A stretch of DNA of 64,000 nucleotides. Source: Bolinopsis microptera. Taxonomy: Eukaryota > Ctenophora > Tentaculata > Lobata > Bolinopsidae. Position numbers and translations under genes: made by a program. How positions within the stretch are numbered: the first letter of the stretch is position 1; each line of letters opens with the position of its first letter. The notes beneath the pieces are model-generated. The model was given only the letters and a program-made list of their open reading frames with translations. It was not told the DNA's origin and did not search any database. Location of the stretch: positions 13,226,340 to 13,290,339 of the forward strand of contig NC_087081.1 in the NCBI RefSeq assembly GCF_026151205.1, read 5' to 3'. Below are positions 5,621 to 34,833 of the stretch, piece after piece.

Positions 5621-5631
5621 CACTCTAGAGT

Positions 5632-6467: not shown

Positions 6468-6628
6468 TAGAAGCACTTGCAATGTAATTACGTAACACGA
6501 TAGTACTAGATAATAATAGGAAGTAATTTAAGCCGCTGAGCCGCAACTCATTGCTACACTGCACTGTACATGTTACCTGTTGTATTCGATGTGTTGTAAT
6601 ACTGCGTCTCTGTTTCTGCTGTTCAGTG

Positions 6629-7017
<389 letters not shown>

Positions 7018-9995: not shown

Positions 9996-12900
9996 ATGTC
10001 ATGTCAGACAGGAATAGTAGCGTCCTCACGCCTGGCTGCCTACCTAGCCAGCACCTCACACCACTCTGACAGGTGCATTCAGATTACTATTGAGGATGAG
10101 GAACTACAACTTATACAGAACAGGTTATTAAGTTGTTATTACGAGGGTGTTTCTAAGGTTATATGTAACCCTGCTGTTATATACAGCAGTCTTTCTTAAT
10201 CGCAGTCTTGGATTAATTTAAATCCCGATTCTCAGTCCTTACCTCAAATTTATGCCTAAACCTAAAAATGTATTCGTCCCAAACTCAAATTTATTACCTT
10301 TCTATTATGTACCTAGTTTCTAAGCTAAGTTAGTTTAATGTTGCAGGATAGCAGCCAGTACCTACGAGGCAGACTGGGACCGTAACGTTATGGTCTGTAT
10401 TGAAGACAGTGAGCCCTGTTACATCTTCTATCGGCTGGACGATAAAGTAAAGTGAGTTGTAACACTTTGTAACGCTATGTAACACTTTGTTTTGCTATGT
10501 AACGTTATGTAACGCTCACTTGGTAACATTATTCCTACATACAATGTCATTTCAATTTCATTCGCTCATCCCTTCAAGTAGCTTAACAGTGAACATGTTA
10601 CCACTTTTCATCATTCATTCACTTAAAATTCGCAGAGTAACCAAAGAAACAAAAGGGTGAGTAGTTCACACTCAATTTATAAAATTTATTTTCACCTGTA
10701 CCTCACTTTTCTTGACATTTTTTATTCAGCCACGATGTACATTTCGTGTACACTGTACAAGTACATTGTACAAATGCACACATGTACACATGCATATGAA
10801 CAATGTACATGTACACAACCTCATACATTCATTTAAAATCAAATTCGCAGATTGTTCAAACGCAAAAAGCCCGACTCCACTTCGTCACAATACCCATACA
10901 AGTAACCACATTTAACTCTTTACAGTGTATTGTAGTCACATGTTTCATACATTATCATTCATAACACCCGCAACTAGTATTGTTGCGAGATTTGGTGTAA
11001 GGACAAGTTATAAGGTAATATGTCAAAAATCATAATATCACAATAGTGTTACACGTATCTAACTTATAATGCAGAGTCAACTGATTTTACGTTGATTTAA
11101 CATTACTGTAACGTCGTTGAATTTTATGTTACGAATTGTAACCTTTATGTTACGAATTGTAACGTCACAGTTTATGTAACGTCTAAATGTAACATGTTAC
11201 ACTCTCAGTGACTGTAACGTCTAAATGTAACATGTTACACTCTCAGTGACTGTAACGTCTAAATGTAACATGTTACACTCTCAGTGACTGTAACGTCTAA
11301 ATGTAACATGTTACACTCTCAGTGACTGTAACGTCTAAATGTAACATGTTACACTCTCAGTGACTGTAACGTCTAAATGTAACATGTTACACTCTCAGTG
11401 ACTGTAACGTCTAAATGTAACATGTTACACTCTCAGTGACTGTAACGTCTAAATGTAACATGTTACACTCTCAGTGACGGTAACGTCTAAATGTAACATG
11501 TTACACTCTCAGTGACTGTAACGTCTAAATGTAACATGTTACACTCTCAGTGACTGTAACGTCTAAATGTAACATGTTACACTCTCAGTGACGGTAACGT
11601 CTAAATGTAACATGTTACACTCTCAGTGACGGTAACGTCTAAATGTAACATGTTACACTCTCAGTGACTGTAACGTCTAAATGTAACATGTTACACTCTC
11701 AGTGACTGTAACGTCTAAATGTAACATGTTACACTCTCAGTGACTGTGACGGGGTATTCTACTACGTGTTTATGTGTTACGTACCAAACGATACATCTGT
11801 TAAGAATAAGATGTTGTACGCTGCCACCAGGGCCACCCTCAGACGCATATTCGGAGATAACCGAATCTCTACGGAGGTTAGTATTTGTTGCATTACAATT
11901 TGTCGCATAATTAGCGCATAATTAGCGCATAATTAGCGCATAATGACTGGGTAATAATTTAATCTGCCCAGATCCTGCTGATTTATTCTAGCTGTCTTTT
12001 TATACTGGACGTAACGGTCATATTGATATTTTATAATCAAATATACTGCAGTAAGTGCACCTTGTCTTCTGTCAGTTTTTCATTTAGATGGATATCTAAT
12101 TTTATAGCACTACTTATGATAACATTCTTGTAATATTTCAGTACATGGGAACTGTACCAGAAGAACTATCTCTGCAAGGTTACAAGAACCACGTGCTCTC
12201 AGCTGGTTCTAATGCTCCCATGACAGAGGCTGAGAAAGAGCTGGCTCAGGTAAATTGTGAGGTTATGTGAGGTTTCAGGCACAGGGTAATGAGGTTATGT
12301 GAGGTAATGTGAGGTTTCAGGCACAGGGTAATGAGGTTCTGTGAGGTGTTGTGAGGTTTCTACCTAAACAATCCCCCCATTCTGCTATTTTTCATTCAAG
12401 AGATCGAGTCGCTAAAACGTTGAATCGTTCATCATACTTATTTGCTCCCAATATTGCAGAAATATTTTGTAACACCAATTTTTACCCTTTTACACTCTCC
12501 TTTAACACTCTCTTCACAAGGTGAAGAAAGATGAAGCAGCAATGCGGTCCCAGATGTCCACTAACAGTGCCACCCTCCCCGGTCTAAACCTCCCTGCCAC
12601 ACAGGACCTGCTCAACAACCTGGAGAAGTTCAAGAAGGGATTCGTCAATTACCTTCAGATTAAACTTGATACTGGTAAGTGTTGTTGTTTATTGTTTTAT
12701 TATTAGGGGTTATTGTTGGGTAACAGGATGGGAGCGGTGATATAACTTAGCATAAATTATATGTAATTATATGTAACTTAGCATAAATTATATGTAATTA
12801 TATGTAACTTAGCATAAATTCATCGATAAAAACAGTGATAGCTCAGTAAAATGTTATATTGCAACTGATAACAACCAGTGATCAATCATATTCTCCACAA

Positions 12901-15179
12901 TCTCTCATTCATCAGCCACTACTTTAGTTCTTTAACTGAACAGTAACTTCTATTTGTTGTGGGGTGGTGTTTGCATTGAAGAAGTGCAAACCTGTCACGC
13001 TTCAGCTTCTAGCACATGTAATAGCGCTGGTGCTCTCACAGTCACTACTTCTGTGGCCCTCCTATTTGGATAGTGAGGTTTAGCGAGGTTTCAGGCACAG
13101 GTAAATGATGTATTGTGAGGTTTAGCGAGGTTTCAGGCACAGATAAATGATGTATTGTGAGGTTTAACGAGGCCCCAAACCTGACATGATATCATGAGTA
13201 GTACTCTGACAATGAGTACTTGTGAGGGCTTCCTCAACCATACAACAACAACCACACAACAACAACAACAGCTACACAACAAATTAGGGGATAGAACGTT
13301 TTCTCTTTTCTGTTTCTCATGTTCACGTGTTTTGTTTCCATTATCTAAATTACACTTTTCTGCAGATAAAGAGGAGTTAAAGCTGTGGGACTGCGGAAAC
13401 ATCCAGGGTTCCGAGTTATCAGAGAAAATACCGCAAGACGAACCGCGATACCATTTGTTTAACTTTAATCACGATTTTGAGGGTGAAAAGATCTGGAAGG
13501 TTGTGTTTATATACTCCTGTCCTGGATATAGTGTGAGTAGTAGTAGTAGCGTGGGGGGGGGGGGGCCCAGGTCAAGATTAGTTTGAAATGGTCGCCTATG
13601 GCGTTTTTGATGGTCGTTTTTACACACTCGGCCTCGCCAGCCTTCGGCTGGCTCGGCCTCGTTAGAGTGAAGTCATCCTCAATCTCAGCCTCGTGAGAGT
13701 GATATCGGTCTCGGTGTGTCTATCATAAACAATTAAACTTCAAGTTAATTGGGTAGTCGCGAAATGAGACGACATGTCTTCAGTTTCACGACTAATGAGA
13801 CATAATTACATTCGGAAAATTATTACTAGGCAGTGAGTGCGTTTGATAAACTGGCACAGTAAGTGATATCATACCGATGGTTAAGTGTCAGTATTATTAG
13901 TTTCTCCAGAGGGAGCCGAGAGGGAGGTGAGTCTAGCCACTTGCAGGGGAGCAAGCTTCGTATCCTAGAATCATCTAGAGTATAACAGTGCAAGCGTAAA
14001 CAGTACTTTGAAATTGCATTTTCAAAAAATTTCTGATAATTCTTTGATTTATTTGAAACGCAAGGATATATTTTTCAAGCAGTTTATATATAGTCCACCA
14101 CCATCAACTACAGATGCCTCCCAACTCGCTAATTCGTTGGTGGGCCACGATTCTGGCACATCAGCATACTGTTTGATACGTCACTTTATGAGTGACTTCG
14201 GCATTGTGTTGATATTTTGCGTGCGATTTGTGAATCTGGAGCTTGCTTTAGACATGTCGCTTGTAAGCAAACGATATTAATTGTTAATGCTACAACGTCC
14301 CGGTGAAATGTAACAACTGTGAAACCGAATGGTGAGTTGTAATACATTGCGGGAGCAAGCAAATTGAAAATGCACTTATAAAGTACTGTTGGTGTTTACA
14401 CTAGCACTGTAGTCTTAGATGATTCTAGGATGCCAAGCTTACTTCACCTAGAACATATGAGTTCCCTGTATGTGGCTGGACTTCCCTCCCACTTGCACTG
14501 TTCAAGATGATTTCATGAGCACATCCTGGGAATTAAAAGGTAATTATGGTAAAGGATAATGACAGCTGTAGCGACAATATTAAATTGATTTGTGAAAATC
14601 GGTCTCGGATGTGAAGCTTCCTTAAGCCAAACCCTAATAATACTGTACCACTCGAACTTCGAGAATTTTCTAAATGAATCTAGACTAAAGGAACCAACTT
14701 GAATCCATACAATTTTGAATGCTAAAGTTTAAAATACCGCTTTATATTATCACCATTCACCAGACACTATGGCTGGAGAGGGATTGTTTGTCCCAGTTTT
14801 GGTCGTCACCATGACAACTGAACTTGTTTTTACAGAATCGCGGATTTATATAGTAAATTTGGTCAAATCGGGCGACCAATTTTAACTAGCTAGATTTGGC
14901 GCCAAATTTAAAATATGGTCGTTCAGTCGCCATACGACCAAAAAAAAACTAGCGCGGCACTTGCTAGATAGTTAAAATATGGTCGTTTAGTCGCCATACG
15001 ACCATAAAAAACTAGCGCGGCACAAAACTATTTATTTGCTAATTGGAAATTATTTGCGTGTGAACGACCAATTATTGGTCGTATGGTACTAATAAAAACA
15101 AAAGTTTGATACATCAAACTGGGCAATCTTGTGTGATTGGTCGGCTTGGAGATGGCTAGATAGTTAAGGATCTTGACCT

Positions 15180-15210
<31 letters not shown>

Positions 15211-15916
15211 CGGCGGTATTAGCCATTAATTAATACAGTAATCATTAATATAGTTAACATTACAATCCATTCAAGATTTATTATACCCTGGATCTATAAT
15301 ACACGACTAGAATATATTATAATCGTATCTATACTCTTACCCATGCATGAACACACTGGTACCTATACAATGTATAGTATACATGGCACTGATATAGACT
15401 CCAAAGGTACCAGTGAAACAGAGAATGATGTACAGTTCTACCAAGTCCTGTTTCCTCGACAGTCTCGCTAAAATGGACATTGAAATCGCTGCTAAGCGGG
15501 AAATATCCGGTTAGTTATTTATATTGAATTAGTTACTTACTTACTTACTTGTTGTTGAATAGTTACTTACTTACTTACTTACTAATTAACTTGAAGTTAG
15601 TTTAGCTACTTAATAATTAATACTATAATATAACCATTTCAAAAAGTCTTTAATTTGGTACATCTATAAATGCGAATATGCCATATCATCTTAGGTAAAA
15701 TTGTATTTTAATTGCATTATAATTAATTAGTTGTATTTTAATTGTATTATAATATAAGTAAGCTGACCAGCTAAATTTGTCCCAGAGGGTGAAGAAGTAA
15801 AGGAAGTTGATGTTTACGAAATGATACATCCTCAGAAACACGCCTCAAGAGCTCACTTTATTAAACCAAAGGCTCCCTCCAAAGGAGGACGACGTCTCAT
15901 TAGAAATAATAATTAA
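9996..15916 (+). CDS. TWF: Twinfilin, complete eight-exon gene
   Basis: Exons 9996-10123, 10347-10451, 11741-11876, 12142-12249, 12521-12674, 13366-13532, 15407-15509 and 15786-15916 join in consistent phase into 343 residues, the usual twinfilin length. It starts MSCQTGI, as in the family (MSHQTGI). The first ADF-H domain includes EPCYIFYRLDD and KNKMLYAATRATLRRIFG. The linker has LQGYKNHVLSAG. The second ADF-H domain includes YLQIKLDT, RYHLFNF, FIYSCPGYS and RMMYSSTKS. The C-terminus, VYEMIHPQKH then KAPSKGGRRLI, is the conserved tail that binds capping protein. Twinfilin binds ADP-actin monomers and barbed ends and promotes filament depolymerisation. The ATG at 10001 is out of frame. Exon 3 begins inside a 38-bp minisatellite, and intron 6 carries a large insertion. 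Confidence 0.97.
11176..11747. repeat. 38-bp minisatellite overlapping the twinfilin exon-3 acceptor
   Basis: Fifteen nearly identical 38-bp units (taacgtctaaatgtaacatg ... ctctcagtgactg). The last unit supplies the acceptor ctctcag and the first bases of exon 3 (tgactgt). All upstream units therefore carry the same ctctcag|tgactg sequence, giving about fifteen identical candidate 3' splice sites. Differences are rare (tgacGg for tgacTg in three units). Confidence 0.95.
12255..12360. repeat. Repeats of gaggtttcaggcacagg in twinfilin introns
   Basis: In intron 4, units of about 40 bp combine gaggttatgtgagg with tttcaggcacagggtaatgagg. Related units recur in intron 5 at about 13075-13165. The unit resembles the exon-4 donor region ctggctcaggtaaattgtgagg, so it may derive from that junction; this is uncertain. 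Confidence 0.55.
12740..12818. repeat. 29-bp repeat in twinfilin intron 5
   Basis: About two and a half units of aacttagcataaattatatgtaattatatgt in tandem. Purely intronic. Confidence 0.8.
13546..15208. mobile_element. Insertion bounded by G-runs in twinfilin intron 6
   Basis: The intron between exons 6 and 7 holds about 1.6 kb bounded by cccaggtcaagat at 13566 and its inverted copy atcttgacctggg ending near 15183. A G-run of about 14 bases lies at the left edge and one of about 29 bases at the right. Inside, a 57-bp block with the hairpin tggtcgt ... acgacca and aaaactagcgcggcac occurs twice (about 14920-15022). A 90-codon frame at 14008-14280 is not recognisable. It is probably a non-autonomous mobile element, class uncertain; the G-runs may also mark assembly difficulty. 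Confidence 0.5.
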
Positions 15917-17668
15917 TCTATGAATTAATTGAACTCAATCAATAACAGTAATATAACGAAAAAGAATTGGTGCGAACGTGCTTTTAAAAGAATTAATTGA
16001 AATTGTTGGTGTTATATTTGTTTCACGCTTTGTATTCATCAATATACGGGTTTTGCCGTTTTGTAGTTTTTAAATGTTCCGTTTCGTGCAATACTGTAAC
16101 TAAAGTTTCTTAACAAATTTATTAAGGGATTTTTTGTGATTAGACAAGTAATGATCCCGTTTGGCGTTAAAATTTTGACAGTCCCATACATTTCCAATTT
16201 AATAGTTGAATAATTTTTGTATCTTTGTCAATAACCATATTATTGTAATTTAACAAATTTTTATTAGTTATTTCGTCACTTTCAAAAGAATTATACGGCG
16301 TGAAATGTGTAGTAATAACTAAATAGAATGAGATCTTTAAGTCGTGAACTGTGTGATAACACCCAGAGCAAATAAATTGAGACCCTTGACTCTTGAGACC
16401 CAGGAATAATACTTGGGAGTGCCTACTTTAATCATGTGAAATGATAGTTAATCCCTCTACAGTATACACTGGAGTATCATAACGCGTTCTCTGTATGGCT
16501 CTGACAGAAAATTCAAAACCATTACCCTCTACTCTGACCCCAACCTTATCCAAATTCCTGGCCAAAGCATATGCAGTTATCAACAACACAGTTTTTTTTC
16601 ATCGATTACTCTTCAGGAAAGCATTGAAACACATTTTAAAACTGTCATGTTTGGAAACCGCGAACACATATAATAATGATATCTTGGCGCAAGAAAAACG
16701 CTATACCGCGCGCGCGCGCGCAGCATAATCGAACGATATTTTAGATATTGTCTTCTGTTAAAAGAGCACAATTTCACACAGCAAACCCGGCTAGCTAATG
16801 GCTAGTTACATGTCAAAAAACACCACAATTTGATCGGAATTTCGATAACGATGCATTTTTATAAGTAACCACAAGCATCTATTATTTAAAGCATTACAGG
16901 ATCATACAAAGATTGACCGGTTAAAACTTCTCGCTGTGAGAATTGAAAATCAGCAGATTGAGCGACAAAATCACCTGATTATTCCTCTTTATCGCTCTGT
17001 GTTAACAGCTCTATAAATTGAAAATTAATCTGAACCGCTGTTTTTAACACTCGTTATTCGATTGTAATAGCATTGAACTGATCAGTGATCATGTATCCAC
17101 ATATGGGCACTGACAGAAACTTGGGCTATGTAAAAACTAAAATGTGAACGATCTCTTATTGTCACAAACACATACAGGTGAACTAACATTGGCCAAAGTT
17201 GGCTGCATCTTGGTATAACAGTTAACAGTTACACTGAACACTCACATATATCCCTATAAATATAAGTGATGTGTTGGAACTGGCATATGGGTCATTTCAT
17301 CAGAGGATCAAGTATTGTTGTTATCTTTTTGTCTCCAAGTTATATTGGGTATGGTCATTGGTAACTCCGGAAACTCCTAGAAATCTTCAAAAACTGAAAA
17401 TGGAACAACATGATTTTTCAATTTTCTTCGGGAAATCGACTTTCAGTACCTCAATTTGGTTTCATAACATCAATTAACTGAATAATTGGTCTCTGGGCAA
17501 AAAGTCCATCCAATCTGTCAAATTTGTGTCTATAAATTTTCATAGTTCACGCCACACAAATTGCATTCGTTTGTAATTTTGTTGTCTCTTATCAGCTTGC
17601 TTAGCTCGCCTAGTTTAACGGCGAGATTACTGTGTGTGCTTCATGCTTGTAGCGTATAACTATAAGCC
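15917..17668. other. Intergenic region, no gene recognised
   Basis: AT-rich sequence after twinfilin. The only notable local features are a short (CG)n tract at about 16708-16721 and scattered poly-A/T. Short frames at 16495 and 17271 show no motif. Confidence 0.5.
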
Positions 17669-19890
17669 ATGATGGCTATAACTGTTAACGACAAGGAGTT
17701 GGAGGATCTGCTCGGGAAATGTTCTGCTTGGATACCTAAAGCGATGGAACAAGTCGGGTGCACTGCTCCAGTTGACGTGACGTCAGCAGTGTGTAAACGT
17801 GCGATGAAGGACACTTTGGCATTACTGTTTTCTGAATCGTTCCACTTTGTGCGGTTTCAGGCGGAAAAAGTGAAACAGCTGAAGGCTGAGCTGAGCTCCA
17901 TCAAGAGCCAGCTAATCGAGAATCCTAGACGTGGGTAATCAGCTTACAGGAGCAGATTATCGACAACAAGGACAAACAGCTCGACGCAGTAAAAACTGTG
18001 GTCAAGTCTTCAGTGGAGAGCAACTTGAAAGAACAGTTCAAGTCATACAGTGAAGCTGCTGCGGAGAACGTTATCGAGCGTGCTAAATCACTCCACAGTC
18101 GATCTTCCTTCTTCGAGATTGTTCTAAAAGGGCCCCCAACAGTTGTAATCAACTTCAATCGATGTATTTTCGGACGCTGATTCCGAATCACCCCCATGAC
18201 ATAAGGGGTAAAATGCTCCCCTGACGAGATATTGGCGAAAAACTGTCTCGATCACGTGATTTGACCGTATAAGGAAGTTAGTATAATTTCTCGTTAGGGC
18301 TAGGGTTTCAGCATATGCTTTTGCTAAGGATTGGGTTAGGGTTAGGGTTGGGATCAGATTAGAGGGTCAGGGTTTCGAATAGTTGTTCAGGACCAGCTAG
18401 AGAATGGGTTGAAAAAGTCACGTGACAGTCGAGTGTAGAGTGATTAATCATCATCCGAACGTTATGGTCTACCAGACTGATAGTTAGGCAGATCCGGCTA
18501 CTCTGAAGAAATTGGTCAAGTCCGTCGTCCAGAAGGAGGATCGGAGCAGGAACGTTGTATTATTTGGACTGTCAGAACAAAAGGACGAGAATGTCGAAGA
18601 GCTAGAGCGGGTACAGGAGGTATTCCGGAAGACTAATCGTAAAACCTACTCTGCAGGCTACCAGAGTAGCGAAAGATTCGTTAAAAGAGAATTCGAAGCC
18701 GACGGCCCAGTCAAGGTTTCGTTATCAAGTCACAGCGCTGTCCATCAAGTGCTATGTCAAGTCAAGAAGCTGCGCCACTCAGCGACTTTCAACAAAGTGT
18801 ATGTGAGACCAGATCTCTCCGAAGAAGAGCGACCTCAGGACAGGCTCCTGGTTCATGAACTGGTGAAGAAAAGAGAACTGGAACCGGATAAACTGCATTT
18901 CATACGATCGGGGACAATTCATTCAAAAGACAAGCCAATCGAGTGATGATGTGTGTTGTGGCTGTGGAGCTGTGGTACTGGTATGCACTGGGAGACTTTG
19001 GGTCAGAAAACTGATCCGGCCCCCAAGAGCTCAATCTAGCCTTTCAGTCATTTGAAACGGTAAGTTCCTCAAATAGGACCAGAATCGAGGCACTTGAAGT
19101 AAACCATGAGAGTCTGACGCAGGCTATTATCAGTTCACCACAGCCTCCGACGAACCACAAGCCCGCCCGGCGCGACACACCGGCCTCTGTCGATGATACG
19201 AACAGGGAAAGCGAACAGGGTATCCTGTGGTCCGGGATCGTTGAGAATGGAGGCTCCGAGACGTTCACTACATCGAACAAGAAGAACAGCAAAAACCACA
19301 AAGAGAATCTACCTGTACCAGCAACCAGACAGGACAACCGCAGTGAGTCAAAACATTCAGAGACCACCGCATGCGAGGCACAACCTAATCAACCGAGTCG
19401 TGAAGCCAAGGAGAGTAGAAACAAATCTTCCAGGCGAATAAGGGAAAGTTACAGACAGCACACTTTCTTCTGATCCACGATAGTAACTTTGATCACTTCA
19501 ACCCTATATAAACTGTTCAATAGTCAATTCAATGTACACTGCCTCAAGTTTGACAGCTATGAGGATACGACTAAAAAAACAAAGCTATTGAACAGCACCA
19601 TCAAACGACTCAAGCCCGAATGCATATATGTTCACACGGGGATAAATGACCTTCTCAAAAAGAAATCTGGTCTCGTGAGTATCGTTGAGGAGTTTTCCGA
19701 GCACCTGATGAACACAACCAAAGCCCTAATATGCTTCTCAGGACTGATTCCATCGAGCAACGATAAAGTCCTCACCGAGAGAATCAGCATCGTCAACAAA
19801 GATGTTGAAGACTATGTGAGCTGGCTCCACAAACACAAGCCGGTTGCAAAAGATAGGATTTTTTCCATCCACCATTTTGAAAAAATATAA
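17669..19890 (+). pseudogene. Decayed non-LTR retrotransposon ORF1 with SGNH esterase remnant
   Basis: Discontinuous frames in one direction form a broken protein. 17669-17938 has an N-terminal helical part. A shifted frame at about 17940-18130 carries a coiled coil (KDKQLDAVKTVVKSSVESN). 18480-18946 has RSRNVVLFGL and VYVRPDLSEEER, typical of the RNA-binding region of non-LTR ORF1. 19455-19890 has IHDSNF and VHTGINDL, which resemble SGNH-hydrolase blocks I and III. Frameshifts, stops and an insertion of about 350 bp (18131-18480) interrupt it. ORF1 proteins of CR1/L2-type elements are known to carry an esterase. No endonuclease or reverse transcriptase follows; another esterase-encoding unit begins about 500 bp downstream. 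Confidence 0.7.
18318..18356 (+). repeat. Short TTAGGG-like tract
   Basis: gggttagggttagggttggg plus nearby gctagggttt and gtcagggttt. It lies inside the segment that interrupts the decayed ORF1. Only two to three exact units, so a chance or interstitial telomere-like tract. Confidence 0.5.
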
Positions 19891-20084
19891 AGTGGATGGT
19901 TACGAATGGAGGTTTTTGCAGAAAAACGCGGATTTTGGAGATTGCGGTAGGTAGGTATGAATATGTCGTCAGTCCTTCCGTTAGTAACCATGTCAACGGA
20001 AAAGCTGCGCGCGCGCACAAAAATTAATCACTGATGCATTGTGCTTCCTACAGACGAGGGGTCTACTTAGGACTCTGCCTCGCG

Positions 20085-20092
20085 TGACGTCA
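20085..20092. promoter_or_regulatory. TGACGTCA CRE palindrome upstream of the 2A-SGNH-AlkB unit
   Basis: A perfect CREB/ATF-type octamer in a CpG-rich stretch (gcctcgcgtgacgtcacgtt), about 300-500 bp before the first coding exon of the downstream unit. It may be part of that unit's promoter; the role is inferred from sequence and position only. Confidence 0.4.
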
Positions 20093-20396
20093 CGTTAATG
20101 TAGATAAATGATCGCGCGACAAAATTCAGTCTTTCTGCTTATTACACTTAAAGTTACGTTTCCATTCTTTTCAATTGCAATTTACGAACCTTTAATCTTA
20201 ATTAATAGATTTCACCTCGAGGAGTTTGGTTAATGTGCAATATTACTTTTGTCATAATGTACACATTTGGTTATTATTCAATCGACTGACGTTCGTTTAC
20301 AAGCACTCTGACTACGGTGTCAGCTCATTCTACACCTTCACGAGAACATTCTTCGTGCGGGGAGCTTTAGCGGCTACTTCTGTCCTGGTTGTGCTG

Positions 20397-23300
20397 ATGT
20401 TTGCGTCGTCGATGAACACTGGAGTTCTCGTCGGTTATGGTGAGTTCGTTTAAAGTTGAAATTGCACGTCTGCTACCTGAAGTTTCGTTTCCTTGAGCTT
20501 TTCTGTGCTCGATTAGATTGGTTGTTGAAGATATCATTGTATAATAAAGAGCTAACATATTTATAGGTCGTCTGCTCTCTACACCCAGTCTGTGGACGGT
20601 TCTAATGGACCCTCAACAGCTTTTCGTGGTCGCCCTTCAACCACAGAACACCTTGGTTTTGGCTTCAGGAGCGGTGTTGAGTGTTGAATTTTATTTGGAG
20701 TTTATTTATCTAAGTTGTTGCAACGTTAACATCATGTCAACATTGAATTTAATTTATAATCTGGTTTTGGCTCAATTGATTTATTTGACATCTACAGTTG
20801 AAGCTGTTAGCGCTCAGTTACAGAACCTCGATGTTGCTGGCCTACTGCCATCTAGTCCCGCCATCCTCGTTCTTCAACTGGTCGTAAACGCCATAGCTGG
20901 TGATTTGTCTCCCTCTGTTGTTTGGTCCAGGATGTGCCTAATACTATCGGGCGATGTGGAAACTAACCCGGGACCCGCACAGTTTAAGTGCAACACCGCC
21001 AGATCCTCTCCTGAGGAGTTCGTCTATACGGATAAGAACGTGAGTAATTAAATGTTATGCTTTTACTATTTAAATGTACATGTCTAGACGCATTTTCTAA
21101 ATTTTTGTACAGTAAACCCCAACAGATGTACAAGCATTACAACTTTCAATCTTACTTTCATTTATGTTTGTGGGAGCTTTACATTATACGATTATTGAGA
21201 AATACATTTTTTCAGGTTGTGGTTATAGGAGATTCGATGATTAAATACATTAATTCCGAATGTCCCGAAGAACCTACACGTTTATATCCGAAATCATTCC
21301 GGGGACTACATGTTTTTTCTTATCGTGGTATGGACACCGAGCACGTGGCAGACGAGGTAACCAACATCAATCCTCGGAACCTGCCGCAGATAGATGCTGT
21401 GTACGTCATGGTGGGAACTAACAATATAAAAGGTAGGTGTTCGTGTGATAGTGTGACGTTTGCAGAAATGTTTACTGACCTCATAAACTGTGTGCATCAT
21501 AAGTTTCCGAAGGCTACTGTTTTTGTGAATATTGTTTTGCCTCGTTTTGATTATCCTAATTGTGAAAGATCACATTATCTTTCTAAAATTAATGCCTTTA
21601 ACGCTGAATTGGTTTCTTTACGTAATAAACTTAATTTCGTATTAGTTTCTAACCCTTTTCACATTACTCCTAATGATGCTTTCAATTACATCCAGCGTAC
21701 GGATAATTTACATTTCAGCTACACAGGTAACATTTTGTTTAAGAAAATTGTAAAGGCTAACATTCACTGCTATTTTTATGGCTTTGCTAGTATCCCCACT
21801 CATCTCCGTTATCTAGTAGACAGTACACTGATCCCCGCATCCCCTTTACCCTCACAATTTCCTGATCAGTCTGATAGCTTGTGGGATTTAACTCCGGGTT
21901 ATTCTCCATCTCCTGCCTCTGCACCTGCTCCATTTGCTGCTCCGGCTCCTCCAGCTTCTGCTGCTCCGGCTCCTCCTGCACCAACACCTGCACCTCCGGC
22001 TCCTCCTGCACCTGCTCCATCTGCTGCACTTGCTCCATCTTCTGCACCTGCTCCTGCTGCACCTGCTCCTCTTCCTCATGCTGCACTTGCTCCATCTGCT
22101 GCTCCGGCTCCTCCAGCTTCTGCTGCTCCTGCTCCTGCTGCACTTGCTCCATCTGCTGCTTCTGCTGCACCTGCTCCTGCTGCTCCACCTGCTGTATCTG
22201 CTCCATCTGCTGCACTTGCTACATCTTCTGCTCCTGCTGCACCTGCACCTGCTCCTCCTGCTCCTGCTGCACCTGCTCCTGCTGCTCCATCTGCTGCAAC
22301 TGCTCCATATTCTGCTCCTGCTGCTCCTACTGCACCTGCTCCATCTGCTGCTTCTGCTGCACCTGCTCCATCTGCTGCACCTGCTCCTGATGCACCTGCT
22401 CCATCTGCTGCACCTATTGCACCTGCTCCTGCTGCACCTGCTCCACCTGCTCGAGTACCTGCTCCTGCTACACCTGCTGCACCAAAACCTACTCATGCTG
22501 CACCCGTACCTGCACCTGATACACCTGCACCTGCACCCGCACCTGCTCCTGCTCCTGCTTCATATATTTCGTCGAAGTGTCCGAAATGGCTTCGTACAAG
22601 GCTAGCCTATTACAAAGATCTACTCCCTGTGCATATTGCAAACCATGTTGAGGAACTTTTACTATCTAAAGTTAAACAAGGTCTTTTCATTAGACAGGGT
22701 ATCAACTCCTCGCAGGTCCTTCTGTTCGGCAAAGATAGATATGTTTACAACAGGGCTACTAAACATCTAAATCCTATCCCCATTCATTCAGAGCCTATAA
22801 TACAAACAATTTTGTCCATTGTAAATGTTACATTGTCAGCTAATTTTAACAGCATATTGGTCAACTTTTATAAAGACTCCTCTACCATCCTACCATATCA
22901 TAAGGACGATGAACGGCACTTGGACAAATCTGCCAAAATTGCTACACTATCAATTGGGGCTACACGTTACATGGACTTTGCCACGTGTAAAAGGAACCGC
23001 CCCTCGTTCAGTCAGCAGCTTCTGTCTAATTCGTTGTTTGTTATGGATCCTGAGTCACAGGTAGAGTACTTCCATCGTATAGCTCGCGGTAGTAACTCTC
23101 GTCTTTGCCAAGGCTACCGTTTCAGTCTTACTTTCAGAACACTTAAGCCCAGCACCCTCGATAAGACTGAAGGGGTGTCCTCATCCGGCGCTGTTTCTTT
23201 AAAGCCCTATACCCTCGATAAGACTGAAGGGGTCTCCTCATCCGGCCCAGTTTCATTAAAGCCCTATACCCTCGATAAGACTGAAGGGGTCTCCTCATCC

Positions 23301-23489
23301 TGCCCTGTTTCATTACAGCCCAGCACCCTCGATAAGACTGAAGGGGTGTCCTCATCCGGCCCGGTTTCTTTAAAAGGGGTGTTTTCGTCTTACCATCTTC
23401 CACACATCCCAGCACCCCTGATGAGAATAACCGAATACATTTGTCATCATCATCCTCCGTTCTTCAAACACCTAGTGTCCCTAGTGTGA
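20397..23489 (+). CDS. Leader-2A-SGNH hydrolase-Pro/Ala linker-AlkB dioxygenase polyprotein (5' part of a mobile element)
   Basis: Probable exons: up to 20439 (earliest in-frame ATG seen 20397), 20567-21039, and 21216 to about 23400. Intron phases are 1 and 0, with clean gtgagt donors. Numbered from the ATG at 20605, a hydrophobic leader precedes the 2A motif GDVETNPGP (116-124). An SGNH hydrolase follows: GDS 150-152, GTNN 212-215, DNLH 308-311. About 220 residues are almost wholly Pro, Ala and Ser. An AlkB-like 2-oxoglutarate/Fe(II) domain then shows NFYKDSSTILPYHKDD (HxD, His 707 and Asp 709), a distal His near 765 and RFSLTFRT. This resembles ALKBH2/3. It ends in DKTEGVSSS repeats, and the frame shifts near 23400 relative to the next part. 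All catalytic residues appear intact. Function in the element is unknown. Confidence 0.8.
20911..20979 (+). other. 2A-type ribosome-skipping sequence
   Basis: Encodes RMCLILSGDVETNPGPA. The core D-V/I-E-x-N-P-G-P is exact and is preceded by a hydrophobic helix-like stretch, as in active 2A peptides. Known 2A sequences stop peptide-bond formation between Gly and the last Pro, releasing the upstream peptide. Here that would separate a leader of about 123 residues (from the 20605 ATG) from the SGNH-AlkB protein, which would start with proline. Such motifs are known at the N-terminus of some non-LTR retrotransposon proteins of marine animals. Confidence 0.85.
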
Positions 23490-26176
23490 GCAACAACCCT
23501 ATTTCTACTGAGATTCGTCATCTACCTCTTTATCTTCGGATCCCTGCGCCTTTTATAAGACTTACCGGCTGTCACCGTCTGCCACTGCTTCCCTGTACCC
23601 CCCATATGACTGAAGAGACCGGGGTGTCATTATCTGCTGCTCATCCTACGGAACCGCTTATCCCTGATATGACTGAAGGGACCGGGGTGTCATCATCTGC
23701 TGCTCATCCTACGGAACCCTTTATCCCTGATATGACTGAAGGGACCGGGGTGTAATCATCTGCTGCTCATCCTACGGAACCCCCTATCCCTGATATGACT
23801 GAAGGGGCTGGGGTGTCATCATCTGCCACTCATCCGACGGAACCCCCTATCCCTGATATGACTGAAGGGACCGGGGTGTCATCATCATCTTCCGCATATG
23901 CAGCCTCTATTCCCCACAACGTTAGTCACACCACTAAACAATCTCGGTCACTAATGTATGGTGGTGGCCGACATAACAATCCTTTCATCGACAATGAAGC
24001 TCAAGATGAAGAAGCTCACGTATCCCAAGAGTCTGGCAACTCTCATAATTTTGCAGCTTCGCCAGGTGATATGGAAAATTTCATTGATGACACTGAATCG
24101 CTTCAATCTCAGGAGTATAGACCCTATTATGACCGCCAAGCTGATAGCTATGTACAAAGTTCCACTCATTTGACCTCATCTGTCCAAAATGACTCTTATG
24201 CTTCAACTGTTACAAAGAAAAAGAAAACGGCTGCCTCTACGAAATGTGACACTCTTTCTAATATGACAGATAAAGAGCTTAAAAAAGAGGAAGATCGCAA
24301 TTCTGCTCGAAATGGAATGCGGCAGCATCGTGCTTCTATGACAAGCCCACAGCGTTCACAACAACTTCAGTATGATTGTTATCGAAAGTCTCAAACTCGG
24401 GCCTCCATGACCACCACCGAGCTCACGAGACTCCAACAAACTGAATGTTCTCGAAAGTCGAAAGCTCGGGCCTCCATGTCAACCCCTGAACGCGACGCAA
24501 AGAAAGAGCAAAATCGTTTAAGCAAAAAGGCAAGTCGCGCAGCTATGACAGATGAGCAAAAGAGAATGGCGAAAGAAAAGCGACGCACTCGTATTTCTCT
24601 CAATAAAGCTAGGAACATTACTTCTCAGAAAATTTGCTCTCCTGTTCTCCTTCGTCAAGATAGCCGAAGTAATATGAGCGGTTACAAAACACCACCAACT
24701 CCCTCTGCATTTTATCATCACAATCATTCACGGTCTCCAGCTTCGTCTCTGAAAACTGCTTATTCACCCCACGACATTTCATTTCACAAAGTTACTGTTA
24801 ATAGAAATAATAAAGTTGCATCTCCTTTAAATGGATACGGAACTTTCTCCAAAACCTTTGCATGCCAAACACCTCCAAAATACACAGCTCATAAATCAGG
24901 AACTGATTCGCATAATTCTCCAGTACCAACGAGGCTTATTCCTACTTTGGATTGGGACTTTGTTCGTTTTCCTCATGGCTCCAAATTATTAGCTGAAATT
25001 GAACTTAACTGTGCTAATAAATGCACCTTCTGCCCAGGTTTTATGGAGAACTGCCCCTTTTCTCATATCCAAAGTGTCTCCCCAAAACAACATTTTACTA
25101 TTTCATCGGTACCATCAGCCTGCCATTCACCCCCCATGGAATATTCTAGTCTGCATAACTTTTTTTTTGAGGACCAGCCCGAGGTACCACAGAGGCCTAT
25201 TTCTACTTTGGATTGGGACTTTGTTCGTTTTCCTCATGGCTCCAAATTATTAGCTGAAATTGAACTTAACTGCGTCAATGAATGCACCTTCTGCCCAGGT
25301 TTCATGGAGAACTGTCCCTTTTCTCATATCCAAAGTGTCTCTTCAAATCTACATTTCACTCCTTCATCGGAACCACCAGCTTGCCAATCACCACCCATAG
25401 AATCTTCTAGCCTGCATAACTTTTTCGTTGAGGACCAGCCTGATGTGCCACCCAATGCTTCAAAGGCTTCTCCAGTGCCCCTTAAGCATCACTCTAAATC
25501 ACCTCCCAAACCCTCATTTGATCCAAAGACTGACAACATTGTGAAGACTTTCCGTGCTAAAATGCGAGAGTACCCAGAATATGCGTGTATTAAATGTCAC
25601 AAGCTTTTCTTCCGTGAAGGTGTTGTTAAGGCAAAGGACACTTTTAAGTTTAAGCTCAATATTCCTTCGGTTACTAAAGCAGATAATAAATGGATTTGTA
25701 AACGTTGCAATAGTTATTTAAAGCGTGGAAAGTTCTCCCCTATAGATGTAAATGAAATGTTCCTGGCATCAGGCGATCTCCCATCCTCCCTTCAGCCAAA
25801 CCCCACCGAATGCCGCTTAGTATCCCAAATCATTCCATTCATGAAAATTTTATCCCTTCCTGCTGGAGGTCAAAGTTGTATTAAAGGCCCTGTTGTAAAT
25901 GTCCCCATCCAACCTGACAGAAACTGCATGCAGCTCCCTCGTAAACTTTCTGAGTCTGGTATTTTAGCTGTCCGTATAAAACGTAAGGTTGAGTACAAGT
26001 CTGTTGTAATGTCTGATGTTGTTAATCCTGATAAATGTATAACATTATTAGTATGGCTTAAGAAAAACAATCCTTTTTATAAAAAAAAAATTCAACATTT
26101 AATTTTGAAGATATTCAAAATAGAAAATGCAGAAATCAACGGCCACATTTTAGATCTGCAAGAAAACAGAATTTGA
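23441..26176 (+). CDS. Helitron-type protein fragment with DUF6570-like domain (3' part of the 2A-SGNH-AlkB unit)
   Basis: One frame, interrupted by a single TAA at 23753-23755 where neighbouring repeat units have TCA. It starts with MTEGTGVSSS repeats continuing those of the preceding frame. Next come four basic RASMT...ER...RKS repeats (24240-24640), then two 87-residue repeats (24942-25464) with CxxxCxFCPGFMENC. Finally there is a DUF6570-like region: CIKCHKLFFREGVV, CKRCNSYLKRGK, IPFMKILSLPAGGQ and GPVVNVP (about 25585-26070). Arg-rich repeats followed by DUF6570 are characteristic of the N-terminal part of many animal Helitron/Helentron proteins. No HUH Rep or PIF1 helicase follows before 26.8 kb, so the element is truncated or a cargo-only derivative. 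An AT-rich frame at 26177-26385 may be a decayed continuation. Confidence 0.7.
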
Positions 26177-29641: not shown

Positions 29642-31708
29642 TTAAATTTGTTTCTTTCTCTGGTAGACTAGTGCCCTAGACTTAGACGACTTAAGCTTGA
29701 ACCTTGACCACACAACGAACTCCTGATAAACATCAAGCAGGGTTTGCATATCTACCATTTTAGCCGTGGTAAGGCAGCTATCATCCATAAACAGCTTAAG
29801 GGGTGGTATAGCTGTTCCATCCTTAATGTACTCGACACTCCTGGGTACCTTCATCTTCAAGTACTCGTCAGAAAGGTTCATGCATAGCACAAACAAGATC
29901 ACCGAGATGACACAGCCCATAAATATTCCTATCTCGAACTGCTGCCACTCTGATGTCACTGTTTTAGAGGAGAATCTTCCGTAAACTTCCGAGAAGTATT
30001 TGATTACGATGTTGATAACTTTCTCGGGGATATGATAGAATTAGCGGAGTGCTTTCACAATAAGTAAATGTGGAACAGCCCCGTAAGCATTCGCCAAGTC
30101 TAACCAGACAACACTCAGATCCTTTCTCTTAACTCTAGCATCTTTGAGCACCTCCCACATAGCTCCAAAGTGCTCTGTACATCCGTGTACACCAGGAACT
30201 CCACCCTTCTGCACAGAGAGATCCACATACCCGTTAGCGACAACAAAGTTGGTTAATCTTTTCGCCAACACAGCGAGGTATATCTTCCCCTGAATGTTTC
30301 CTAGCGATATAGGCCGTCCTGTGCTGGGTCCAAAATCTCCATCCGCCTTAGGAATGTAGATCCCTTCAAAGTACCTACAGTTGTCTGGGTACTCCTCAGC
30401 CTTGTAGCCTCCTCTCAGCACATGCCACAAGTTCTGAGATATACCTGGGCACCTCTTGTACACCGTATACGGGATGCCGTTGTTACCAGGTGAACTCTTA
30501 CCTCTGGCTTTCTTAACAACCTCTTCGAACTCCTTCTTGGTTATATTCCTGCTGTCAAACCCCACAGTTGGGCTAGGAGCTGCCTCAGGTAACCCATTCA
30601 GAACGCCAAGAGGAACTGCCCGACTGGCATCACTATACGTATTAGACAGGTGGTTGTCTAACTCCTCCTTACTACACTTTAACTCTCCCACAGGGCTTGG
30701 TTCAAGAATACCTTTAATAGCCTTGAAAGGATCTCGAGTAAACCCACCTCTCTGTCTCCTCACTTCTCTCTGCTTCTTCCTCCTTGCCTCTGCTCTTCTC
30801 AACTTACACAGCTTCTCTGCCAGGCCTCTAAGCAAAGCATTGAAACCATCCTTTACAGACTGGGAACAAGCTTTCCTGGCTTTCCTCCTCAGCACTCTCC
30901 TCTCAATGACCAACTTATCAATCTCCTCCTGTCTCCTGTTGGCAAACCTGAGACCTTTACCTGACTCTGCACCATCAATCACGAGCCCAAACCATTTCAC
31001 ACCATCATCATACACCGTGTCGCAATGGCTCACCATCTTCTCCTGGAATGGCTTCCCCTTCTGCTCCTGTCTCACTCTCTTACTAACACTCACATCAAAC
31101 TCTACCCACCTCTCATCCTTTGCGGCCGGCCACTTCACCTTGGGCTTCTTAGGGGCAGGTGGGTCAATAGAAGAACTCTTTGAAAGAAGGGCCTGGATAT
31201 CCCTGGCACTGTGGTTATCGTCCTGGCCAGGTACCTCCACCGAACTTACAGATGCAACATCTAACGGTTGCTCCCCTTCCCAAGAGCACTTCATCCTTCC
31301 TCGATGAATGTTCCTACCCCTTTCCGTTGTAAAGCGTCGACCACACACGCAGCTAAACTCCTCTGCTACATCAGAATCAGGGGTCGAGAGTTCTCGACTG
31401 TTTGTATAAGTCCTTTTCTGATTCGTGGCAGGACGTGGTGGGTGTCCACAAAGCCTTTATTTTTCACCCGGGCAACTCGTCCCTAAATAGGGACTCCCGG
31501 AACCTTAGAGAGGCAGGAGGCGCAGGACCGATGTGGACTGAGGTCTCCGCTCGTTAAAACCCCATCACACCTCTCTATTGCAGTAACCGCTGCAGGCACG
31601 GATCTCAACCCAACCCAGAAGCCAATTCCAAGCGTAGCATCTGTTCAAATCAGGTGGGCCTTACCCCACGGTAGCTGGCCAATCCCAGCAGTATCATAAA
31701 GTAGCATA
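29642..31708 (-). pseudogene. R2-like non-LTR retrotransposon, 5' half: zinc finger and reverse transcriptase, 3' truncated
   Basis: Minus-strand frame from about 31400 to 29642 interrupted by one TAA at 30041-30043, after which the same frame continues. It has an N-terminal CxCx12HxxxxC zinc finger (CVCGRRFTTERGRNIHRG), a basic region and reverse-transcriptase motifs: GKSSPGNNGIPYTVYK, GRPISLGNIQGKIY, LDLANAYGAVPH (catalytic Asp) and LFMDDS (FxDD form). The frame stops before the thumb and endonuclease. 31349-31708 is the probable 5' UTR, directly abutting the 3' end of another copy at 31709. The zinc finger and RT, with the RLE endonuclease of its relatives next door, point to the R2/NeSL/Hero group. 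Confidence 0.85.
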
Positions 31709-33582
31709 GAGTAAAGATACAGTTAAACTGCGAAGGCACAACACCAAACCAACCTTACTCTATCTCCCAAAAACAACCTTCTCCTGGTCAGCCATGTCCC
31801 TCATCCTGCACTTGACCCCCGCAGAGGTCACAAGCCCATCGGAGCACAAATGAGCGAGAAACGGGGAAGCCTTAGCTACCGGGCTAAGGACTGCATCACT
31901 AGCAGCGAAATACGGATATACCCTCCCTTTTACATGCGTTCAACCGGCACCCGAACCACACGCTGTTTCTTAGACATAACTTCCCACTTACATCAGTGTC
32001 TTCTCGCATCAACTGGCATCGGCAAGTGGCGACACTGTGTAGACTCAACCCTGAGCTTGATCAGAATCTTCAGTCACAAACCTGACACCGTTTCGGGGCT
32101 TTCATTGCGATACGGTTTTCTGTCAGGTGCCCCAGCAGTCTCTCTTGGACCACCATCTGATCTGACAATCACCCGAGGATACCTGCTAGAGCTCGCGATT
32201 TACGACGAGTTAGCTTATGGCACCTCTGGCTGTTAGGTGAAGTCATAAAGCTCAAACAGCTCTCATCTCCCACTCTCTTTTCCTAGACAGCAGATAAATC
32301 CATCTTGAACAATGGGCTGCATCCTTCCCACAATCTCTGACCAACTTCTTGAGGGCTCTCCCAGTCAGACCAATCTTCCTTGATGCACACTCCAAACTTG
32401 CTGCGACCACACCTCTAGCACCAACCTCAACAGCAAAGCTGAAACATGACCACCCATTAGCTTGTATTTCCGCTTGTAGACTGTTATACCGATCAAGCTT
32501 CAGCTCATGGGATGCAGCTATTCTCTCTTCCGACGGTACTGTAAGCTCCCACCAGATTACTCTCTTGGAAGCTTTCGAGAAAAGAACCAAATCTGGTCTT
32601 AATCTGGTCGTTGCTATATCCGACGGGAATTTCAGCTGCTCATCCAGGTCTGCTAATACTATCCAATCAGTGGCCCCACTCAGAATCCCAAACTCACTGA
32701 CTTTCGACCTCTTCACCTCCTTAAACCTCCCTCCTGCTGGAACAAACTTAATGGCTTTCCGAGTGACACAAGAGCTCTTCCTCTTGTTGACTCTCCGCTC
32801 ACAATGGAATTTCACTTGGTCTGCTATTTGTTTAAGCACCTTATCGTGGCGCCATCGGTATCTCCCTTGACTTAGTGCCACAGGACAACCAGCCAGAATA
32901 TGCGGCACAGTTCCCAACTTGTCACCAAGTCCAATCACCGAAACCAATTCCCGCTCTACTAAGAGGTTGCACCATACCTCGCACTGACTCACACACCAAG
33001 TCTCTTTCAGCTTCGTGAAGCTGAGCATCTGCCTTCCAAACTCTCCCAGACCGCACCTGGGGTTGCACCGCTCTGATCAAAGCATCCTGAGATGTTTGAT
33101 ATGACTGCAAGAGACGGCACTTTTCTACTTTCCAAGTGTCGGTTAGGCTGTCGATGGGGAGAGCAACACTGGATGAATGACTAAACAGGCAAGAGCTACT
33201 AAGCGTGTGTCCCACTCCTAGCCATTTTCTGAGATGACTGTTAGTTGTTTGCTCCCAGCGAGAAACAGTGCTGATCGGGATATCATAAATGGCAAGTGGC
33301 CACTTCATTTTTGGAAGGACCATATACTGATACCCCCAACATTTCTGCAGGCCGGTGAGGGAGCTAAGATCGAGTCTACTGAGGTATGTAACAAGATCCT
33401 CGTGTGTTTTCTCGATTATAGCTTTGTCCTTTCCTTCTGCCCGAATCCACCTCCCTAGAAACTTGATTGGTTTCTCAGATACATTCGGGATCACCTCCCC
33501 GCTAAGCTGCAACCTCGCCTGACTACCTTCTGAACTCTCTACAACCCACTCCACTGTCACTCCAGCTTTAGCATCCAAGTGT
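31709..33582 (-). pseudogene. R2-like non-LTR element copy B: thumb, restriction-like endonuclease and 3' UTR
   Basis: Minus strand. The 33560-32927 frame holds the region after the RT palm (KFLGRWIRAEGKDKA, RWEQTTNSHLRKWLG, GIGFGDW). It then jumps by an internal deletion, probably at the repeated ggtga, into VPHILAGCPVALSQGRYRW and the nuclease motif RPDLVLFS ... WWELTVPSEER, the PD-(D/E)XK core of R2-type endonucleases. The deletion removes the first cysteines of the CCHC knuckle and shifts frame. 31709-32251 is 3' UTR. The part 31709-32926 is an inverted copy of 33616-34833. Confidence 0.85.
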
Positions 33583-34833
33583 AGCGAGGATGAGGATGGG
33601 ATGTGCAAGCTGTGTGGTGACAAGTTGGGAACTGTGCCGCATATTCTGGCTGGTTGTCCTGTGGCACTAAGTCAAGGGAGATACCGATGGCGCCACGATA
33701 AGGTGCTTAAACAAATAGCAGACCAAGTGAAATTCCATTGTGAGCGGAGAGTCAACAAGAGGAAGAGCTCTTGTGTCACTCGGAAAGCCATTAAGTTTGT
33801 TCCAGCAGGAGGGAGGTTTAAGGAGGTGAAGAGGTCGAAAGTCAGTGAGTTTGGGATTCTGAGTGGGGCCACTGATTGGATAGTATTAGCAGACCTGGAT
33901 GAGCAGCTGAAATTCCCGTCGGATATAGCAACGACCAGATTAAGACCAGATTTGGTTCTTTTCTCGAAAGCTTCCAAGAGAGTAATCTGGTGGGAGCTTA
34001 CAGTACCGTCGGAAGAGAGAATAGCTGCATCCCATGAGCTGAAGCTTGATCGGTATAACAGTCTACAAGCGGAAATACAAGCTAATGGGTGGTCATGTTT
34101 CAGCTTTGCTGTTGAGGTTGGTGCTAGAGGTGTGGTCGCAGCAAGTTTGGAGTGTGCATCAAGGAAGATTGGTCTGACTGGGAGAGCCCTCAAGAAGTTG
34201 GTCAGAGATTGTGGGAAGGATGCAGCCCATTGTTCAAGATGGATTTATCTGCTGTCTAGGAAAAGAGAGTGGGAGATGAGAGCTGTTTGAGCTTTATGAC
34301 TTCACCTAACAGCCAGAGGTGCCATAAGCTAACTCGTCGTAAATCGCGAGCTCTAGCAGGTATCCTCGGGTGATTGTCAGATCAGATGGTGGTCCAAGAG
34401 AGACTGCTGGGGCACCTGACAGAAAACCGTATCGCAATGAAAGCCCCGAAACGGTGTCAGGTTTGTGACTGAAGATTCTGATCAAGCTCAGGGTTGAGTC
34501 TACACAGTGTCGCCACTTGCCGATGCCAGTTGATGCGAGAAGACACTGATGTAAGTGGGAAGTTATGTCTAAGAAACAGCGTGTGGTTCGGGTGCCGGTT
34601 GAACGCATGTAAAAGGGAGGGTATATCCGTATTTCGCTGCTAGTGATGCAGTCCTTAGCCCGGTAGCTAAGGCTTCCCCGTTTCTCGCTCATTTGTGCTC
34701 CGATGGGCTTGTGACCTCTGCGGGGGTCAAGTGCAGGATGAGGGACATGGCTGACCAGGAGAAGGTTGTTTTTGGGAGATAGAGTAAGGTTGGTTTGGTG
34801 TTGTGCCTTCGCAGTTTAACTGTATCTTTACTC
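33583..34833 (+). pseudogene. R2-like non-LTR element copy A, 3' end: zinc knuckle, restriction-like endonuclease, 3' UTR
   Basis: Plus-strand frame to 34290 with an intact CCHC knuckle (CKLCGDKLGTVPHILAGC), GRYRWRHDKVLK and the endonuclease core RPDLV, WWELTVPSEER and the downstream LKLDRY. The 3' UTR runs to 34833. The copy is severely 5' truncated and opposes copy B head to head. From 33616 on it matches the complement of 32926-31709 without a difference that I noticed. The terminus at 34833 is shared with copy B, which defines the element's 3' end. Confidence 0.85.

Follow-up and report, generated by a model that had tools for sequence, protein, structure and literature searches.

A Helitron-like element of the ctenophore Bolinopsis microptera that encodes an AlkB-type dioxygenase in one chain with its Rep and helicase

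In fungi, Helitrons are among the DNA transposons with TET/JBP dioxygenases, which PMC12730594 reports from no retrotransposon, and orchid Ty3/Gypsy elements carry an AlkB protein with N6-methyladenosine (m6A) demethylase activity in vitro (PMC9289625). Here we describe a Helitron-like element of Bolinopsis microptera in which an AlkB-type dioxygenase is joined to the transposition proteins themselves. It came to light in a 64,000-nucleotide stretch of contig NC_087081.1 (C10:13226340-13290339, hereafter the window), where positions 19859-26085 are the 5′ 6.2 kb of a rolling-circle transposon of about 14 kb. The fungal TET/JBP transposons resemble it (PMC12730594) in that a 2-oxoglutarate dioxygenase is carried by Helitrons and is common to unrelated transposon types of one genome; here, unlike there, the enzyme belongs to the AlkB family, is fused in frame to Rep and helicase, resides in an animal host and has retrotransposons as carriers too. 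The orchid elements of PMC9289625 likewise hold AlkB within a transposable element, but they are long terminal repeat (LTR) retrotransposons with an ALKBH5-like protein in a separate open reading frame (ORF), whereas the carriers here are Helitron and non-LTR elements and the domain is closest to ALKBH3 and ALKBH2.

Two other described systems share single parts of the element or of its relatives. The esterase-type first protein (ORF1) of CR1/L2-like non-LTR elements (PMC3905857) is matched in this genome by proteins that also begin the element with an SGNH-like region and are followed, where the flank sufficed, by an endonuclease-reverse transcriptase ORF2; in our proteins, however, AlkB precedes the esterase, and a term search of that paper returned neither AlkB nor dioxygenase. 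The 2A-like sequences of non-LTR elements and sea-urchin NLR proteins have the same D(V/I)ExNPGP form after a hydrophobic N-terminal stretch (PMC4981915), but in our case the motif stands in a rolling-circle DNA transposon. We found no AlkB-bearing Helitron or non-LTR element in the literature searched, which consisted mostly of titles and abstract openings and left Repbase, subscription journals and eukaryote protein databases outside the search, and priority for either is not certain.

We searched the host genome (264.65 Mb in 232 contigs) and found at least ten near-full copies of the window's AlkB, its own included, at 73-100% identity; AlkB counts are lower bounds throughout, 150 of 740 candidates having been scored. 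An SGNH region lies upstream of AlkB in all ten, which are spread over six contigs. For comparison we used nine fetched copies plus that of the window, eight belonging to what we call family 1 and two to family 2. A single open frame of 3388, 3366, 3321 or 3226 codons runs through four of them, the remaining five fetched copies being interrupted, shortened or cut by the fetched stretch. Pfam gave the whole domain chain in two full-length copies, one from each family (C10b, L025+L026, and C9b, L027+L028): SGNH, AlkB, DUF6570, Helitron_like_N (E 3.2e-22 and 1.7e-23, respectively) and, in the same frame as this Rep domain, the PIF1 helicase (E 2.7e-22 and 7.3e-25). The HUH motif of Rep (PHLHMLL or PHFHMML) and its catalytic tyrosine (..DKY) are present, as is the Walker A motif of the PIF1-like helicase. 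Full-length copies thus encode a leader with a terminal 2A motif, followed by one chain of SGNH hydrolase, repeat-rich linker, AlkB, basic and DUF6570 regions, HUH Rep and PIF1-like helicase. The earlier note on this DNA, made from the window alone, had proposed a large Helitron-like element with AlkB-type cargo, and the copies with Rep and helicase in the same frame bear this out. It had also named separate elements for the two halves as what would speak against it; the opposite was found, a single open frame spanning the two halves in other copies. An assembly artefact, or a chance meeting of two unrelated elements, could be argued from the window copy by itself, its halves being separated by a frame change and a stop. 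SGNH adjoins AlkB, however, in ten copies on six contigs, and in four of these an open frame continues unbroken through DUF6570 and further; this refutes the explanation and leaves it a negligible probability.

In the window copy the features run as follows.

19859-26085, plus strand: Helitron-like element with Helentron-type ends, 5′ fragment (collinear with copy C10b from that copy's 5′ end; family-1 5′ motif)
19862-19899, plus strand: 5′ subterminal repeat TTTCCATCCAC with nested inverted repeat CCATCCAC..GTGGATGG (predicted fold with an 8-bp stem, z -2.1)
20397-20439, plus strand: exon 1, start codon to GT donor (in-frame joining; alignment of family-1 copies)
20567-21039, plus strand: exon 2, hydrophobic leader to the 2A motif and some 20 codons beyond (in-frame joining; alignment)
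20953-20976, plus strand: 2A motif DVETNPGP (sequence; copies compared)
21216-23489, plus strand: exon 3, first open part, with SGNH, Pro/Ala-rich linker and AlkB (open frame)
21222-21728, plus strand: SGNH (GDSL-like) hydrolase with GDS, GTNN and DxxH (Pfam Lipase_GDSL_2, E 1.3e-8)
22566-23147, plus strand: AlkB-type Fe(II)/2-oxoglutarate dioxygenase, HxD...H...RxxxxxR intact (Pfam 2OG-FeII_Oxy_2, E 4.9e-22)
23154-23374, plus strand: array of 57-nt tandem repeats, an in-frame linker
23342-23489, plus strand: frame change of the window copy (overlap of two open frames)
23604-23886, plus strand: array of 63-nt tandem repeats, related to the 57-nt array and containing the stop at 23753-23755
24250-24620, plus strand: basic repeats (from the translation; borders approximate), which we take to be typical of Helitron proteins
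24923-25444, plus strand: 261-nt in-frame tandem duplication with a Cys-rich motif
25766-26085, plus strand: DUF6570 domain (Pfam, E 9.8e-13), N-terminal to Rep in full-length copies

The 2A motif, SGNH, AlkB and DUF6570 all lie on the plus strand in the order first claimed, and the profile searches proposed for the last three exceeded the Pfam cut-off in the window copy. The exons join in frame, and the SGNH blocks with Ser, Asn and Asp-x-x-His are present as GDS, GTNN and DNLH. Among the aligned family-1 copies the start codon and the splice sites of intron 1 are identical in eight of eight, with a 5-nt indel inside the intron, while exon 2 is free of stops in seven of the eight matched (C1, one of the seven, matched only from residue 39; C12c has four stops). 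A 2A motif precedes the main frame in all ten copies; family 1 (eight copies) has DVETNPGP and family 2 (two copies) DIELNPGP.

DUF6570 matches, each exceeding the cut-off, were found at 18 places in the genome, at 14 of which the frame is longer than 2000 codons; 14 control genomes had none. DUF6570 is known from Helitron proteins, and here too it stands with Helitron_like_N in one frame. The name DUF6570 was unused in the literature searched, and the region had no convincing solved relative by sequence, the best match (E 0.028, ribosomal protein S17) being taken as chance. We found no relatives of the element in viral and prokaryote contigs; in phages, the search with the DUF6570 region gave nothing and that with AlkB only a single phage, represented by two records, at 29% identity. 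At the end of the 3388-codon frame (L026, 3300-3545) there is a C-terminal motif, NTDDGHGVHWYTVILEI, without a Pfam match, which may extend into a further exon and which we presume to resemble the ends of Ulp1-type or OTU-type proteases.

The AlkB domain contains no stop in any of the ten near-full copies, its iron and 2-oxoglutarate ligands are retained in all ten, and the mean ratio of nonsynonymous to synonymous rates (dN/dS) is 0.22 for 28 within-family pairs and 0.15 for 16 between-family pairs, so that AlkB is under purifying selection; the ratio was used for AlkB only, the means for DUF6570 and Rep having been set aside because of the badly aligned C1 row. Between the families AlkB is the most conserved part in residues (72-77% identity, as against 63% for PIF1, 57% for Rep, 50% for DUF6570 and 40-41% for SGNH). 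At four-fold degenerate sites the corresponding values are 39-48% for AlkB, 43% for PIF1 and 52% for DUF6570; since AlkB does not exceed the other parts in silent-site similarity, its conservation between families reflects constraint and not recent sharing, and the idea that the two Helitron families recently exchanged AlkB is unsupported. Helitrons are known to capture gene fragments (PMC6431247), and AlkB might be such a fragment, a neutral passenger; that AlkB has the most diverged silent sites of all domains in eight of ten copy pairs could be taken in the same sense. Against this, AlkB is in frame with Rep and helicase in four copies, is uninterrupted in all ten near-full copies with dN/dS of 0.15-0.22, and is shared by two families with only 57% identity between their Rep domains. 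The selection test thus largely refutes the passenger explanation, to which we leave very little weight.

Those eight pairs, from five family-1 copies, show AlkB as the lowest of six parts at four-fold sites (73-85%), the two exceptions being C12b-C12c (91%) and C10b-C3 (99%), whereas PIF1 is at 98-100% and Rep at 93-100%. In a sliding profile the low stretch (C10b 3857-6857) covers linkers, repeats and AlkB, with its minimum over the Pro/Ala-rich linker before AlkB. There are hints here that the 5′ cargo region may have been exchanged between family-1 copies.

Besides 15 rows of Helitron copies and fragments, the 150 scored matches included at least 135 to AlkB domains at 27-43% identity, many of them in frames that differ little in length (630, 646, 611, 697, 537 and 676 amino acids). 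They lie on C1, C3, C5, C10, C2 and other contigs, and seven of these distant rows (below 45% identity) were fetched (L037-L040 and L051-L053). In all seven, an AlkB domain over the Pfam cut-off is followed by an SGNH-like region, within which L051 is cut. This region exceeded the cut-off in one (L039, Lipase_GDSL, 23.7 against 23.6 bits) and was sub-threshold in four; L040 and L053, with no Pfam SGNH match, were recognised by their similarity to L052 (E 1.8e-26 and 4.3e-23). ORF2 was looked for at the four loci with enough flank (L037-L040, that of L051-L053 being too short): in two, L037 and L038, a clear reverse transcriptase (RVT_1) is encoded in the frame that follows, and an endonuclease match was over the cut-off in L038 and L039 and under it in L037 and L040. 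The fetched proteins look like the esterase-type ORF1 of CR1/L2-like retrotransposons, a label that follows PMC3905857. By our reading of the translations they may also have coiled-coil or PHD-like parts N-terminal to AlkB; PHD matches were found only in L052, below the cut-off. AlkB thus appears to serve two transposon classes in one genome, Helitron and non-LTR. In an AlkB tree the Helitron domain groups with retrotransposon family L039 (98/97), with a warning of long branches, and we treat this grouping as a lead only. On the minus strand of L039 (1131-2000), the frame before the endonuclease has a degenerate 2A-like ...SILNPGP.

The iron and 2-oxoglutarate ligands are retained in all seven retrotransposon-type AlkB domains as well. 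This bears on whether AlkB could be catalytically dead and serve only as the part of the protein that binds single-stranded nucleic acid, a role that would fit the report that RepBase esterase ORF1 proteins are without a structural RNA-binding domain (PMC3905857), AlkB adjoining the esterase here. The retention of every ligand in 17 of 17 domains speaks against a dead enzyme, and we consider a binding-only role unlikely.

AlkB-type enzymes demethylate DNA or RNA. Among solved structures, the closest to the window's AlkB are ALKBH3 (E 2.7e-13) and ALKBH2 (E 1.2e-8); the retrotransposon-type domain of L038 has the same two relatives (3.5e-8 and 1.6e-7), and in that of L039 ALKBH2 (3.1e-8) comes ahead of ALKBH3 (1.6e-4). 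ALKBH3 prefers single strands, and it is established for the Helitron family that the element travels as a single strand, driven by Rep and helicase. In the mechanism that we propose, the ribosome would release the hydrophobic leader at the 2A site and make the AlkB-Rep-helicase chain as a separate protein; Rep and helicase would peel off one strand and hand it over to a new A/TT site, and the fused AlkB would have this strand or the mRNA of the element as its substrate, removing alkyl or methyl marks that block copying or that mark the strand for silencing. In the retrotransposon-type proteins the substrate of AlkB would be RNA. Lipids are a possible substrate of the esterase, following a proposal made for the ORF1 of retrotransposons (PMC3905857). 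That AlkB works on the element's own single strand seems to us about an even bet.

The presence of AlkB and SGNH in the first proteins of non-LTR elements too fits a service to single-stranded intermediates, single-stranded DNA in one class and RNA in the other, and Helitrons and non-LTR elements may share, or may have exchanged, an AlkB-SGNH module. A wider proposal, which we hold tentatively and at somewhat less than even odds, is that AlkB and SGNH form a portable accessory module that crosses transposon classes and protects or demodifies single-stranded intermediates, an animal counterpart, at the level of RNA and single-stranded DNA, of the fungal TET/JBP traffic. Of comparable standing, plausible though short of probable, is an arms race in place of damage repair, with AlkB undoing a host mark that silences transposons (methylated RNA or DNA bases, for example). 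The spread of AlkB over two transposon classes in one genome favours such a role, as do the parallels of TET/JBP in DNA transposons of fungi, Helitrons among them (PMC12730594), and of the m6A demethylase of orchid Gypsy elements (PMC9289625), but the closest solved relatives are the repair-type ALKBH3 and ALKBH2, and ALKBH5 is not in the 31 matched chains (E up to 1). Repair and removal of a host mark cannot be told apart from sequence. If AlkB does serve single-stranded intermediates, this would offer a testable answer both to what limits transposons, whether alkylation damage or host marks, and to why they take up dioxygenases repeatedly. The natural AlkB-Rep-helicase fusion is available for biochemistry.

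The ends of the element place it near the Helentrons. Eight family-1 copies have a common 5′ end, a T-run followed by CCATCCAC and the nested inverted repeat, and the 5′ motif is in eight of eight family-1 and none of two family-2 copies. The inverse repeat GTGGATGGAAA lies 44 nt before the 3′ terminus in the five family-1 copies with a 3′ end in the fetched DNA. In family 1 the subterminal inverted repeats TTTCCATCCAC and GTGGATGGAAA and the nested 5′ inverted repeat are as in Helentron and Helitron2. The 3′ end was matched at 11 genome places and is visible in nine of ten loci cut out; L043 gave a 100% match to it in the genome search, yet the end was absent from that locus on reading. Four of the five copies with both ends are 13.7-14.0 kb long and the fifth is 16.1 kb. 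We found two paralogous empty sites, C10b against a CR1-like sequence in the window (18085-18200) and C12a against L040. Neither comparison (family 1, n = 2) shows a target duplication and both have A-TT at the junction, although these are only two sites and the 3′ border is ambiguous by 5 nt (TTGTT can be assigned to element or target).

With an HUH Rep and its tyrosine, a fused PIF1-like superfamily 1 (SF1) helicase and insertion without target duplication, the element belongs to the Helitron superfamily. According to PMC4067079, subterminal inverted repeats and TT insertion without duplication are among the listed hallmarks of Helentrons, and an endonuclease defines them. Our element is like the Helentron, Helitron2 and proto-Helentron types of that description in its Rep-helicase, its subterminal inverted repeats (one separated from the 5′ end by a few Ts, the other lying 44 nt before the 3′ end), its nested 5′ inverted repeat and, at two sites, TT insertion without duplication; a predicted 3′ stem-loop may be a further likeness. 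It differs in that SGNH, AlkB and a 2A leader stand in place of the accessory domains that PMC6431247 lists, RPA, OTU and apurinic/apyrimidinic (AP) endonuclease. Pfam searches of the C10b and C9b frames (E 0.01), and of the 3′ part of C10b in three frames (E 0.1), found no C-terminal AP-type endonuclease, and for this reason we do not file the element as a Helentron proper.

We give a probability of roughly 0.85 to the reading that the element is built as described and would encode a working AlkB. Such an element joins a nucleic-acid demethylase or repair enzyme directly to the Rep-helicase of a rolling-circle transposon, and many retrotransposon-type proteins of the genome have the same enzyme family. 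Several points weigh against this reading. AlkB activity, its substrate, the introns and the 2A event are all read from the DNA, and proteins related to AlkB have DNA, RNA or protein as substrates. Among the 150 scored AlkB matches, none falls within 4 kb of ten of the 18 DUF6570 places (the other eight have a near-full copy), so AlkB is not needed by every Helitron of this genome. Copies are few (at least ten near-full AlkB copies, and the 3′ end at 11 places), which leaves current activity of the element to inference, and three further AlkB fragments of the family, at C10:4302179 and two on C11, contain stops. The SGNH score is under the Pfam cut-off in C10b, though over it in the window copy and C9b. 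A 7-bp stem-loop is predicted 10 nt from the 3′ end with arms common to the copies, but its energy is no better than that of shuffles (z -0.85). The domain order is SGNH-AlkB in the Helitron as against AlkB-SGNH in the retrotransposons, and the SGNH regions of the two are weakly alike (best E 2e-7), with no match to L039, whose AlkB is nearest; given the inverted order and this weak likeness, a single transfer of the whole module is unsupported.

The window copy itself has its 5′ end within an older CR1-like ORF1, and its 3′ end is broken off at 26085. Collinearity with C10b puts the beginning of the element at 19859 instead of the start codon at 20397, where the earlier note had begun it, and because of the break-off the last 30 codons of the frame given there are not element sequence. 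Three plus-strand frames searched as far as 36000 held no Rep or helicase 3′ of the copy, as follows from its being a 5′ fragment. The interruptions had been counted correctly, as one frameshift (the frame change at 23342-23489) and one stop (23753-23755), and for such a truncated and interrupted fragment the suggestion of a domesticated derivative finds no support. The description of it as young holds only in part, the differences from C10b at four-fold sites ranging from 5% in DUF6570 to 22% in AlkB. The two halves around the frame change belong to one gene, as judged from related repeat arrays on both sides (tblastn E 0.001, 43.6%), like third codon positions and the occurrence of both halves in one frame elsewhere. 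At third positions, SGNH, AlkB and the DUF6570 half (taken in three parts) have like base frequencies, T being 0.37-0.46 and G 0.14-0.18; the adjacent CR1-like and PD-(D/E)XK retroelement frames differ, with T at 0.18-0.30 and G at 0.19-0.35, and the leader exon (T 0.34, G 0.24) is in between. We dropped programmed -1 frameshifting at the frame change, given the z of -1.8 of the downstream fold (11 of 200 shuffles as good), the stop after it and the open frames of other copies.

The remnant that received the insertion, at 17860-19858, includes the stretch that served as the paralogous empty site of C10b; we take it to be a CR1-like ORF1 with an esterase-like end. A derivation of the element's SGNH from this ORF1 just upstream was ruled out, there being no similarity (E 0.37). 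Upstream of the element on the plus strand (11000-20400), two frames match Cofilin_ADF, one with two stretches (E 2e-13) and the other at E 0.023, and probably belong to a twinfilin gene. A retrotransposon lies on the minus strand at 30041-33671, presumably with a zinc-finger start, a reverse-transcriptase-like part and a PD-(D/E)XK-like end, and its end part occurs also inverted at 33523-34290. Long, nearly perfect tandem arrays of 28 nt and 14 nt occupy 36991-39235 and 43082-44146.

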